Positions 9,513 through 18,793 of a stretch of DNA of 43,927 nucleotides are shown in pieces; the stretch's first letter is position 1; each line of letters begins with the position of its first letter. The DNA lies in the NCBI RefSeq assembly GCF_002251755.1, contig NZ_NOXT01000090.1, positions 1 through 43,927 on the forward strand, written 5' to 3'. Source of the stretch: Sandarakinorhabdus cyanobacteriorum. Its GTDB lineage: Bacteria; Pseudomonadota; Alphaproteobacteria; Sphingomonadales; Sphingomonadaceae. A program made the position numbers and the translations under genes. The notes under the pieces were generated by a model. The model had not been told where the DNA came from and made no database searches. It worked only from the letters and a program-made list of their open reading frames with translations.

Positions 9513-9586
9513 GGCCCGATGGCGGAGTGGTGACGCAGCGGACTGCAAATCCGTGCACGCCGGTTCGATTCCGGCTCGGGCCTCCA
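9513..9586 (+). tRNA. tRNA-Cys (GCA)
   Basis: A 74-base tRNA with the 3' CCA encoded. The acceptor stem pairs GGCCCGA (9513-9519) with TCGGGCC (9576-9582). The anticodon GCA is at 9545-9547 in the loop CTGCAAA, and the T arm carries GGTTCGATTCC. All arms are in place and the variable loop is short, as expected for tRNA-Cys. Confidence 0.95.
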
Positions 9587-11030: not shown

Positions 11031-12140
11031 GTGCTGACCCCGTTTAAGGGCCGGCGCGTGGCCGTTGCCATGTCGGGCGGGGTGGATTCCTCGGTGGTGG
11101 CGGCGCTGGCCCATGCCGCCGGCTGCGAGGCGGTGGGCATCACGCTGCAGCTTTATGACCAGGGCGCCGCCGCGCGCCGGCCCGGCGCCTGCTGTGCCGG
11201 CGCCGATATCCGCGATGCCCGCAGCGTGGCGGAACGGCTGGGCATCGCCCATTATGTCGTCGACATGGAAAGCCGCTTCCGGGAAAGCGTCATCGACAAT
11301 TTCGTCGATTCCTATGCCCGCGGCCTCACGCCGGTGCCCTGCGTTGAATGCAACAAGACGGTGAAGTTTACCGATCTCCACGCCCTTGCCCGTGATCTCG
11401 GCGCCGAAGCGCTGCTGACCGGCCATTATGTCCAGCGGCTGCCCTGCGCAGAACGGGGTGACGCCCACGGCGAGCTCCACCGCGCCGCGGATCCCACCAA
11501 GGATCAAAGCTATTTCCTGTGGGCCACCACGCAGGCCCAGCTCGATTATCTGCGCTTTCCCCTCGGCGGGCTGGCCAAGACGGAAACCCGCGCGCTGGCG
11601 CAAGCCTTTGGCCTTGTGGTCGCCGCCAAGCCCGACAGCCAGGATATCTGCTTCGTGCCCGGCGGCGATTATGCCGCCGTCGTCGAACGCATCCGCCCCG
11701 AACTCGCCAGCCCCGGCACCATCGTCGATGAACAGGGCCGCGTGCTTGGCCGCCACAACGGCATCCATCGCTTCACCGTCGGCCAGCGCCGCGGGCTCGA
11801 TATCGGCGGCCAGGCCGAGCCGCTCTATGTCGTCGGCATCGATGCCGCTGCCGGCAATGTGATCGCCGGGCCGCGCCGGTCACTGGCGGTGGCCGCCGTC
11901 CGCCTCGAAGGGCTGAACCGGCTGGGCCCCGGCGATGGCCCGCTGATGGTCAAGGTCCGCTCGATGGCACCGCTGGCGCCGGCCCGGCTCGACGGCGATT
12001 GGCTGTTGTTCGACACGCCGCAGTATGGCGTCGCCCCCGGCCAGGCCGCCGTGGCCTATGTTGGCGACCGGCTGGTGCTGGGCGGCACCATGGTCGAAAC
12101 CCGCCGCGCCACGGCCGAGGCCGAGCTGTCAAACGCCTGA
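11031..12140 (+). CDS. mnmA: tRNA-specific 2-thiouridylase MnmA
   Basis: A 369-residue enzyme that thiolates U34 of tRNA-Lys, tRNA-Glu and tRNA-Gln. The PP-loop is SGGVDSSVV. The catalytic cysteines lie in [13 protein letters not shown] and [13 protein letters not shown]. The C-terminal beta-barrel is complete. No ATG precedes the PP-loop closely; I chose the GTG at 11031, which gives the usual ~10-residue leader. A GTG at 10995 is a reasonable alternative, and neither has a clear ribosome site. It is divergent from sciP; the 160 bases between hold no other gene. Confidence 0.93.
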
Positions 12141-12159
12141 CATGTCAGCCATTTGACAG
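12126..12159. repeat. Nested concentric palindrome at the end of mnmA
   Basis: Outer arms CTGTCAAA (12126-12133) and TTTGACAG (12152-12159) enclose a perfect 12-base palindrome CTGACATGTCAG (12137-12148). Both have the same centre. The element overlaps the mnmA stop codon and lies 100 bases upstream of the sigma-54 promoter. It could be a hairpin at the end of the mnmA transcript or an operator for the flagellar operon. There is no T run, so a classic terminator is unlikely. Confidence 0.6.
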
Positions 12160-12204
12160 GCTGGCGGCGGAAAATTGACGGCGCGGCGTCAAAATCCCGA
12201 CAGA

Positions 12205-15571: not shown

Positions 15572-16602
15572 TGGCCAGCGCGCCGATCCTGCCGGCCGGC
15601 AGCCCGGCTGCCGCCCTGTCCGGCGCGCAGAAATGCGCCATCATGCTGCTGGTGCTGGAAGAGGCGCAGGCCAGCGAGATGCTGGCCGGCATGACCCCCG
15701 CCGAGGTGCAGCAGGTCGGCGAAGCCATGCTCACCGTGGCGGAAATCGATCCGCTCGCCATCGATCACGTCCTCGATGAATTTCTCGCCCGCACCGCGCA
15801 GGTGGCGGCGCTCGACAGCCAGGGCCGTCAGGTGCGCCAGCGGCTGGGCGCGGCGCTGGGCACCCCGCGCGCCGAAACCATTCGAAAAAATCGGTCCGCC
15901 CGCCGCCGGCCGCCGCTTTGCCGTGCTGGATTGGGTGGATGCCCCGGCGCTGGCCACGCTGATCGCCGATGAACATCCCCAGGCCATCGCCGTCGTGCTG
16001 GCCCATCTGCCCGAAGAGCGCGCCGCCGCCGTGCTCGATGGCCTGCCCGAAGATCTGCAGCCCGATGTCGCCACCCGGCTGGCGACGCTGAACCCCGTCA
16101 ACATCCATGATCTGGCAGCCCTGGAATCCGATCTGGAGGCCAAGCTGCGCGGCGTCGGCACCAACCGCGACAGCGCCAAACTGGCCGGCACCGATTTTGC
16201 CGCCGCCGTCATCAAGCGGGCGCGCGGGCGCGCGGGCGCGGCGCGCTGCTCGAAGCGCTGATGGGCGTCAACGCCGATCTCGCCGCCGAGCTGGAAAGCC
16301 AGCAGTTCATCTTCGAGGATCTGCTCGGCCTGAGCCAGAAGGACATGCAGCTGGTGCTGCGCGAGGTTGATCCCGGCCAGCTCGCCATCGCCATGAAGGG
16401 CGCCAGCCCGGCGCTGAAGGACTTCATCTTCGGTTCGATGTCGAGCCGCGCCGCCGCGCAGCTGCAGGACGAACTGGCCGAACGCGGCCCGATGAAGCGC
16501 AGCGAGGTCGATGCGGCCCAGCGCGATCTGTGCCGCACCGTGCGCCGCCTGGGCGACAGCGGCGCGCTGACCCTGCCCACCGCCGGGGAGGCGATGCTGT
16601 GA
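15571..16602 (+). pseudogene. fliG: Flagellar motor switch protein FliG, two compensating frameshifts
   Basis: All three FliG domains are recognisable but in alternating frames. Frame 1 (15571 to ~15885) gives FliG-N (LSGAQKCAIMLLVLEE). Frame 2 (~15888 to ~16220) gives FliG-M with the conserved EHPQAIAVVLAHL. Frame 1 again (~16240 to 16602) gives FliG-C with the charged torque helix (LREVDPGQLAIAMKGAS; FIFGSMSSRAA). Total length corresponds to 343 residues, normal for FliG. The first shift lies near an A6 run (15884-15890), where one A fewer restores ETIRKIGPP. The second lies in a GCGCGGG low-complexity stretch (16215-16246). FliG-C starts at an ATG (16261), so a free C-terminal fragment could also be made. 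If the indels are sequencing errors, the gene is intact. Confidence 0.88.
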
Positions 16603-17201
16603 CCGCGCATGATCCCCGCCTTGCCGCCCTCTTGGGCACCGCCCCGGCCAAATCCGCCGGCCTGGCCGCGCTGCTGGCCAGCCACCTGCCCAAACCGCCG
16701 CCGCCGCCCGAACCGGCGATCGACATCAGCGCCCTGCTCGAAGACGCCCGCGCGCAAGGCCGCGCGGAGGGTGAGGCCATTGGCGAAGCGCGCGGCCACG
16801 CCGCGGCCCTGGCCGAACTCGCCCCCCGCCTTGCCGCCCTCGACGCCGCCGCCCGCGCTCTCACGGCAGCGACCGGCCTTGACGAAGCGGTGCTGGCGCC
16901 GCTGCTCACCGGCCTCGCCCGGGCCATTTGCGAGGCCGTGCTGATGGCCGAACTCAGCCGCCCGCACAGCCTGCGCCCACTGGTCGCCGCCGCGCTCGCC
17001 GAAGTCGCCGATGCCGCGCTGCCCACCCTGTCGGCCCACCCCGACACGCTGGCCCTGATCGCCGCCGATCTGCCCCCCGGCCTTGCCACCCGTGCCGATA
17101 CCAGCCTGCCGCCCGGCCACATCACCGTCGCCGGCCCGGATTATCGCGTCGATGCCGGCCTCGCTGACCGGCTGGCGCAGTTGCTGAAAGCCCTGCCATG
17201 A
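16599..17201 (+). CDS. fliH: Flagellar assembly protein FliH
   Basis: A 200-residue FliH-like protein starting at a GTG that overlaps the fliG stop (GTGA). Pro-rich N-terminus, then an Ala/Glu/Arg helical region with the GxxxG-type repeat (GRAEGEAIGEARGHAAAL), and a C-terminal domain related to the V/F-ATPase peripheral stalk. FliH holds the ATPase FliI and delivers it to the export gate. Sequence conservation is low; the call rests on position between fliG and fliI plus this layout. Confidence 0.85.
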   Translation: MTAHDPRLAALLGTAPAKSAGLAALLASHLPKPPPPPEPAIDISALLEDARAQGRAEGEAIGEARGHAAALAELAPRLAALDAAARALTAATGLDEAVLAPLLTGLARAICEAVLMAELSRPHSLRPLVAAALAEVADAALPTLSAHPDTLALIAADLPPGLATRADTSLPPGHITVAGPDYRVDAGLADRLAQLLKALP

Positions 17202-18793
17202 GCCGCGCCCCCTCCGCCCTGCGGGCATCTCCCCCAGAGGGGGAGGATCAAACCCATCCTCCCCCCCTGGGGGAGGTGCCGAGCGCAGCGAGGCGGAGGG
17301 GGCCCGCCGCCCCGCGCCCATCCAGATCATCCTCCCCACCCGGAGGAAGTGCCGAGCGCAGCAAGGAGGACGGGCCCACCACCCGCCCCAGATCATCCTC
17401 CCCCCCTGGGGGAGGTGCCGAGCGCAGCGAGGCGGAGGGGGCCGCGCCAGGCCAAAACTCCACCGCCACCACCGCGCTGGCCTGCCGCATCGCCGCCACC
17501 CGCGTGCCGGCGCTGCCGCTGCGCCGCGCCGGCGTCGTCGTCGCCGCCGATGGCGCCATCCTCGAAGCCGTCGGCATCAGCGCCGCCATCGGCAGCCGCG
17601 TCGCCATCGGGGCCACGAAGGCTGTGGGAGAGGTCATCGGCTTCCGCGACGGCCGCGCCCTCGTGATGGGCCTGTCCGCCCTGCCCGCCATCGCGCCGGG
17701 CGCGGCGGTGCTGCCCGATCCGGCCGGCGGCCAAGTCGCGGTGGGCAATGGCCTCCTCGGCCGCGTCATCGATGGCCTGGGCCAGCCATTGGATGGGCTC
17801 GGCCCGCCGGCCACCAGCGCCTGGATGCCGGCCAGCCCGGCACCGCTGCCGCCGCATGCCCGCGCCCGCGTCACCTGCCCGCTGCCCACCGGGGTGCGCG
17901 CCATCGATGCGCTCCTTAGCGTCAGCGTCGGCCAGCGCATCGGCATCATGGCCGGCACCGGTGTGGGCAAATCGGTGCTGCTCGGCCAGATCACCCGCTG
18001 GGCCCGCGCCGATGTCGTGGTGGTCGCCCTGATCGGCGAACGCAGCCGCGAAATCAGCGACTTCATCGATACCGAGCTTTCAGGGCCGGCGCGTGGCCGC
18101 ACCATCACCATCACCATCGCCGTGCCAGCCTCTGATGCGATGCTGTGCCGGGTGCGCGGGGCCCAGGCCGCCATGGCGATTGCCGAATGGCACCGGGCGC
18201 AGGGGAAACAGGTGCTGCTCATCCTCGACAGCCTGTCACGCGTCGTCCACGGCGCGCGGGAGGTGGCGATGGCGCGCGGCGAGCCGATGGGCACGCGCGG
18301 CTATCCGCCCTCCGCGCTGCAGCTGGTCGCCGATCTGGCCGAACGTGCCGGCGGCGACCGCCAATCGGGCGGCGCCATCACGCTGATCGCCACCGTGCTC
18401 GCCGAAAATGATGACCGCGCCGATCCGGTAGTCGATGCGGCGCGCGGGGTGATGGATGGCCATATCCTGCTCGCCCGCCGGCTCGCCGGGCGCGGGCAGT
18501 TCCCGGCCATCGATCTGGTCAGTTCGGCCAGCCGGGTGATGTTCGACATTTGCGACCCCGCCCATCTCGCTGCCGCCAGCCGCTTCCGCCGCATGATCGC
18601 CCTCACCGAGGAAAACCGCGACTTGGTGCTGATGGGCGCCTATGCCCCCGGCGCCGATCCCGAGCTGGATCTCGCCCTCGCCCTGCAGCCGGCGCTGGCC
18701 GCCTTCATGGCCCAGCCGCGCGAACAGCCGGCCGATCCGGCCGACAGCATCGCCACCCTCAATGAACTCGTCGCCCCCATGGAGACGGCCTGA
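17198..18793 (+). CDS. fliI: Flagellum-specific ATPase FliI with repeat-derived N-terminal insertion
   Basis: A 531-residue export ATPase. From about residue 88 it is a normal FliI: ATP-binding GTGVGKS (253-259), the GERSREISDF motif, Walker B LLILDSLSR, and the C-terminal helical part. FliI is usually ~440-450 residues; the excess is residues ~10-85, encoded by three copies of a palindromic repeat (17226-17441) that stay in frame. The ATG overlaps the fliH stop (ATGA), and no plausible start exists after the repeats, so the insertion is probably translated. The extreme N-terminus of FliI is where FliH binds, so the insert lies at a sensitive place. Confidence 0.93.
   Translation: MSRAPSALRASPPEGEDQTHPPPLGEVPSAARRRGPAAPRPSRSSSPPGGSAERSKEDGPTTRPRSSSPPGGGAERSEAEGAAPGQNSTATTALACRIAATRVPALPLRRAGVVVAADGAILEAVGISAAIGSRVAIGATKAVGEVIGFRDGRALVMGLSALPAIAPGAAVLPDPAGGQVAVGNGLLGRVIDGLGQPLDGLGPPATSAWMPASPAPLPPHARARVTCPLPTGVRAIDALLSVSVGQRIGIMAGTGVGKSVLLGQITRWARADVVVVALIGERSREISDFIDTELSGPARGRTITITIAVPASDAMLCRVRGAQAAMAIAEWHRAQGKQVLLILDSLSRVVHGAREVAMARGEPMGTRGYPPSALQLVADLAERAGGDRQSGGAITLIATVLAENDDRADPVVDAARGVMDGHILLARRLAGRGQFPAIDLVSSASRVMFDICDPAHLAAASRFRRMIALTEENRDLVLMGAYAPGADPELDLALALQPALAAFMAQPREQPADPADSIATLNELVAPMETA
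17226..17441 (+). repeat. Three palindromic repeat copies inside the 5' end of fliI
   Basis: Copies at 17255-17302, 17328-17374 and 17394-17441 share the pattern CATCCTCCCC, a C-to-G palindrome, then GTGCCGAGCGCAGC and AGG-rich ending. Copy 1 is preceded by a further small palindrome (17226-17248). Copies 1 and 3 are nearly identical; copy 2 has several changes. Copy 1 is read in one frame (GEVPSAARRRG), copies 2 and 3 in another (SSSPPGG..AERS), and all three are free of stops. It looks like an intergenic REP-type element that entered a coding region. Confidence 0.85.

Follow-up and report, generated by a model that had tools for sequence, protein, structure and literature searches.

In the 43,927-nucleotide stretch of Sandarakinorhabdus cyanobacteriorum DNA analysed here (contig NZ_NOXT01000090.1, hereafter the window), four copies of a palindromic REP element lie near the start of the flagellar ATPase gene fliI. 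We consider it likely that a REP pair was inserted at the fliI start in the ancestor of three species, was subsequently reshaped, and is read through into an N-terminal tail of FliI. In-gene REPs have already been published; the fliI case is real and very probably translated, and the wider pattern, in which distinct REP families occupy the same sites in IleRS and ccmH and REPs enclose DUF559 genes, is more interesting than fliI alone. N-terminal in-gene REPs are easily written off as annotation errors. The fliI insert represents a testable case of selfish DNA turning into protein and, given the combination of insert-free relatives, inserted sister species and an example from the interior of IleRS, REP translation becomes testable in free-living bacteria.

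The original prediction described three copies of a GC palindrome at 17226-17441. Three forward copies are present, but they are preceded by a fourth in reverse orientation, inside which position 17226 falls; the whole repeat stretch spans 17207-17442, between the ATG and the conserved core (Table 1). When a 28-base core was searched with up to 3 mismatches, two matches were obtained in the window, both in fliI, while 100 shuffles gave none. Two reading frames had been expected across the copies, and three are used once the reverse copy is counted: one by forward copy 1, another by copies 2 and 3, and a third by the reverse copy. The predicted N-terminal extension was also found, although its size, given as about 75 residues, is 87 residues relative to the genomes G010 and G011, of which approximately 79 are within the REP stretch (G000 denotes the window's own genome and labels between G003 and G020 other genomes of the genus, with 24 genus genomes in total). 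All copies are open in the frames in which they are read. However, the stop-free insert is weak evidence, because any one forward frame, taken over the whole insert, stays open in 62% of its shuffles; four of its six frames are open, compared to a mean of 3.3 in shuffles. REP copies were open in all six frames in 255 of 313 cases, versus 48% of their dinucleotide shuffles. Stop-free frames were considered as a sign of selection and this was rejected, as composition explains most of the effect.

Table 1. Positions of the features discussed, in window coordinates for the fliI locus and in locus coordinates (L numbers) elsewhere.
Feature	Position	Strand	Basis or remark
fliH	16599..17201	+	Pfam FliH match, gene call; TGA stop overlaps fliI start (ATGA)
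ATGA stop/start overlap, sole in-frame ATG before FliI core	17198..17201	+	
fliI, 531 aa, putative REP-coded N-terminal tail	17198..18793	+	ORF; ATP-synt_ab and T3SS_ATPase_C
REP, reverse orientation, short-loop type	17207..17248	-	
REP copy 1	17255..17303	+	
REP copy 2, diverged	17328..17376	+	
REP copy 3, identical to copy 1	17394..17442	+	
Native N-terminal helix of FliI, residues 90-100	17465..17497	+	Alignment, AlphaFold2 helix 90-100
First in-frame GTG 3' of the repeats	17504..17506	+	
gspG with REP-enlarged leader, G000	L102:1541-2011		
gspG with REP-enlarged leader, G015	L183	-	
ccmH with REP pair, G000	L124:1047-1646	-	
DUF559 genes with the same REP on both sides	L292, L120, L304, L293, L291		
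DUF559 gene with another palindrome on both sides, G014	L289		35 identical bases

The palindrome had been judged to look like an intergenic REP, and the genome-wide search for the repeat unit bore this out. The fliI REP family consists of 42-49 bp units with core lengths of 26, 30 and 32 bases, inverted arms and one consensus, its commonest form being ATCCTCCCCCTCTGGGGGAGGTGCC, a short variable loop, and then GGCGGAGGGGGC. With the 32-base core and up to 3 mismatches, we found 41 places in the window's assembly and none with a reversed control pattern; an exact gapped pattern gave 78 places in the same genome, 44 in G015, at least 28 in G014 and 16 in G009. The core (up to 3 mismatches) was likewise found 37 times in G014, 20 in G015, 5 in G009 and 2 in G005, so that 5 of the 24 genus genomes have the family and 19 lack it. 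Loci fetched from the five genomes contained at least 169 REP clusters (78 in G000, at least 43 in G014, 30 in G015, 16 in G009 and 2 in G005), mostly outside protein-coding genes. A coding scan of these clusters returned 3 rows that run from coding sequence into a REP and 25 that are open on the start side, many of them with a start right after the REP; these rows are not equivalent to genes, and 4-mismatch matches in plain coding DNA were discarded as chance. Further N-terminal rows of the scan are at L233, L153, L181 and L154.

Alignment of FliI from relatives showed no unrelated native N-terminal extension. Thirteen other fliI loci of the genus lack the insert, all starting close to the core. 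In near relatives of this kind, fliI begins directly at the fliH stop and the residues up to the conserved IAA number 13 (G003, G010, G011 and G020) or 15 (G005); in the genes with REPs, they number 100 in the window, 64 in G009 and 37 in G014. Among the genus fliI loci read, REPs occur at this place only in G000, G009 and G014, which group together as a clade (support 99/97) in a FliI tree with 18 rows. Most simply, the insertion would be a single event in their common ancestor. G015, which carries the same REP family, gave no FliI match.

The layout differs between the three species. The window has four copies and G009 has two; G014 has four around the start. The first forward copy has the same frame in G000 and G009 while the frame of the reverse copy differs, which suggests that the frame, not the peptide, was kept. 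In G014, a 76-codon REP ORF begins at the old start, its TGA overlaps a new FliI ATG preceded by GGAGG, and one REP copy remains inside FliI; the junction can thus also evolve away from fusion. We envisage that an inverted REP pair, reverse then forward, entered the first fliI codons in the common ancestor of the three Sandarakinorhabdus species, just 3' of the ATG that forms the overlap with fliH, and that the REP count then shifted by lineage. Given the high GC content of the repeat and its near lack of stops in any frame, insertions that kept or restored the frame would have survived, and a ribosome leaving fliH would start at the old ATG and read the repeats, producing FliI with a long disordered tail.

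The ATGA overlap of fliH and fliI noted earlier was confirmed, with the frame open from 17198 to 18793. The accompanying claim, that the insert is translated, we likewise infer, from the available starts and the conserved residues. An in-frame GTG is present inside REP copy 1, and from the last REP to the GTG at 17504 no in-frame ATG, GTG or TTG was found. The segment encoding the native helix aligns with the FliI start of near relatives, and a start at GTG 17504, which lies within conserved sequence, would lose LACRIAATR, conserved in those relatives. Translation through the fliI repeats is therefore very probably the best reading of the sequence. Alternatively, the repeats may be 5' untranslated sequence; initiation would then occur at GTG 17504 or some rare non-AUG codon, and high GC content would account for the open frame. 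A codon-based gene caller did pick GTG 17504, a given frame is open in 62% of the shuffled inserts, and caution has been advised in that many N-terminal in-gene REPs may be extragenic and possibly untranslated (available text of PMC3733652). We nevertheless regard this alternative as unlikely. Besides the loss of LACRIAATR that it would entail, the frame is kept in G009 at another insert length, gspG of G015 has no start between its REP and the FTLIEL motif, and the ileS insert sits in the middle of the enzyme.

AlphaFold2 (22 sequences) gave low confidence for FliI residues 1-90, with block means of 30-44 and a tail pLDDT of mostly 30-38; the helix at 90-100 was retained and was followed by the usual fold. 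The REP-coded tail is thus predicted to be disordered and to lie ahead of the native N-terminal helix. FliH binds the FliI N-terminus, and the insert had been placed inside this FliH-binding part. We rejected this placement. The best PDB matches of the window FliI were 5b0o and 2dpy, flagellum-specific ATP synthase, the former of which we take to be the Salmonella FliI-FliH complex. Residue 105 of the window protein aligns with residue 21 of the 5b0o chain and the REP stretch (approximately residues 4-82) consequently precedes chain residue 1, so that the alignment, 5b0o and the AlphaFold2 model all put the insert before the native N-terminal segment. Most likely, the tail is tolerated rather than selected. 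Elsewhere in the protein, two extra residues (TI) are encoded at approximately 18101-18106 by a CACCAT-like short tandem and have no counterpart in 21 other aligned FliI sequences.

The RNA fold of the insert is very stable (-170.8 versus -131.7 kcal/mol for shuffles, z -7.4) and could hinder translation. It is conceivable that the hairpins are retained since they tune FliI relative to FliH, either by slowing ribosomes or by protecting the message at the coupled junction, and, along with the fold, the presence of REPs at several tight operon junctions and their retention in three species would fit such a role. We consider this quite unlikely, as copy number and layout differ between sister species, unrelated genes also carry REPs, and a test of the phase at junctions gave a weak result. 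In that test, 23 junction ORFs comprised 6 fused, 8 coupled, 5 with the stop inside the REP and 4 others; REP ORFs ended in step with the next start in 14 of 18 cases, versus an expected 56% (28% fused and 28% coupled, over three phases). The idea that REP mini-ORFs keep translational coupling was rejected as not clearly above chance. One of the junction ORFs, at L186, is a GTG fusion. At L119, L219, L142 and L200, tight operon junctions likewise hold REP pairs whose short REP ORFs terminate at the next start or close to it, in orthologous places in G000 and G014. Around fliI, a search of 16500-18000 for promoter and terminator patterns found none, and the single Rfam match over the window is a tRNA at 9513-9583, with none at fliI.

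Several REPs are near contig ends in these assemblies, as might be expected if the insert were an assembly error, or fliI a decayed gene. This is highly improbable, given that contig 81 runs through the site, that the G009 and G014 assemblies also show REPs there, and that fliI encodes a full-length core, has both Pfam domains and adjoins fliH and a gene with a FliG C-terminal domain.

REPs were found in frame in other genes as well. In gspG of G000 and G015, a REP lies in the leader peptide, with 23 and 24 residues, respectively, to the glycine before FTLIEL; the leader has 9-11 residues in 9 of 10 other loci, the tenth being that of G007. There is no second start before the FTLIEL motif in G015, and in G000 an ATG is located at the REP edge. 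In ccmH of G000, a whole REP pair is in frame before the signal sequence; alternative starts are conceivable, given a TTG inside the pair and a CTG in frame a few bases further on. The insert is absent from the ccmH loci of 8 of 9 relatives. In the remaining one, G014, this start carries a pair formed by another palindrome (L249:1372-1520), which is open from an overlapping GTG and directly followed by an ATG. The gspI gene of G009 (L166) is an ambiguous case, since an ATG follows later in frame, and gspI of G000 (L102, 2410-2611) contains undetermined bases.

In ileS of G000, a REP pair lies in frame within the interior of the enzyme (L271, approximately 1458-1583, equivalent to G000:C116, approximately 12057-12182). 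We compared this loop in 13 genomes (12 searched plus G000; G005 gave no match). Palindromic inserts were present in G000 (126 bases), G009 (150 bases) and G010 (114 bases), each of a different type; the loop comprises 12-27 bases in seven genomes, and 108 bases in G007 and 87 in G019 with no recognised REP. The insert of G010 corresponds to repeats that flank a DUF559 gene of that genome on both sides (L300). For the G009 insert, matching repeats were found in loci of other genomes, and a second G009 copy was not among the loci examined. The one IleRS loop harbours different REP families in three species, as does the ccmH start in two.

E. litoralis and S. alaskensis are sphingomonads. In-frame REPs have been described inside genes of several species, including tRNA synthetases of these two, and in-gene REP clusters code for 43 to 82 residues and are often dimers (PMC3733652); the available text of that paper contains no mention that we could find of fliI as a REP-carrying gene. 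The present elements resemble those REPs in being short, palindromic and mostly intergenic, with some in frame within ORFs. However, PMC3733652 classifies REPs according to their end motif, GTAG or CGTC, and the fliI consensus with its flanks shows neither. The original prediction also pointed to the Rickettsia palindromic elements (RPEs), the classical example of in-frame repeats, of which RPE-4 and RPE-6 are counted as REPs (PMC3733652). The likeness holds for the mode, as palindromic repeats are in frame in unrelated alphaproteobacterial genes, here fliI, gspG, ccmH and ileS. It does not extend to the product: RPEs are approximately 150 bp with a conserved encoded peptide (PMC10969869, PMC3733652), whereas here 42-49 bp units are read in three frames in fliI, and no conserved REP peptide is encoded because the copies are read in different frames both within fliI and between species.

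A further comparison is the REPtron, a REP plus RAYT unit (PMC3733652), which shares with our data a gene flanked by REPs and many solo REPs elsewhere. Here, in contrast, the gene encodes DUF559 (PD-(D/E)XK) in place of an HUH transposase. For the CGTC class, predominant in alphaproteobacteria, the available text of PMC3733652 gives no transposase partner, whereas DUF559 lies between the REPs studied here. A RAYT as mobiliser was not supported, as PF01797 (RAYT-like, Y1_Tnp) was found in only 1 of 24 genomes and its sole gene (L235, G000:C27) has no fliI REP in its 2.2 kb locus. The DUF559 domain is PD-(D/E)XK and Vsr-like, and VsrA, a DUF559 protein of Caulobacter, was held responsible for an SOS response in a subset of cells lacking a cytosine methylase (PMC12907096). 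It has the same domain as the proteins found here, but REPs are not mentioned, and "palindrom" occurs 0 times, in the available text of PMC12907096. In the accessible literature, most subscription papers being outside its scope, we found no paper on an association of DUF559 with REPs or repeats.

DUF559 genes are present in 20 of 24 genus genomes, 15 of which lack the fliI REP family. In the five REP genomes, the fliI REP occurred on both sides of 5 of 7 DUF559 genes (within 300 bases on each side, also at 3 mismatches, leaving out a split match at G000:C118), compared to 4 of 400 random windows from 20 loci of REP-bearing genomes. The DUF559 genes of G009 and G014 do not have the fliI REP on both sides; in G014 the palindrome on either side is instead, over 35 identical bases, that of the ccmH-start insert. 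Irrespective of family, the two flanks shared at least 16 bases in 25 of 29 genus DUF559 loci (from 55 match rows) versus 1 of 147 control windows, and at order level a shared flank stretch was found in 16 of 27 loci (from 29 newly fetched) versus 0 of 84, two of these 16 stretches (L337 and L338) not being REP-like. L296, L342 and L344 were dropped from these tallies for short flanks. In both G010 (ileS) and G014 (ccmH), the inserted family is the one that flanks a DUF559 gene of that genome.

Flanking by REPs is an association and not proof of mobilisation. The Vsr-like DUF559 nuclease gene between REPs is a candidate mobiliser replacing the usual RAYT, which we regard as a fair hypothesis; if the association holds, it would supply a gene partner for REPs without RAYTs. 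More tentatively, it is possible, if somewhat short of probable, that REPs of the Sphingomonadales are spread by DUF559 nucleases carried between REPs and not by RAYTs, and that these REP-DUF559-REP units seed stop-free repeats, which time and again become protein where operon genes overlap and within protein loops. At one DUF559 locus, that of leuD in G005 (L198, minus strand, ORF 2-1126), a single frame runs from leuD through a REP pair into the DUF559 gene and ends through a second REP pair.
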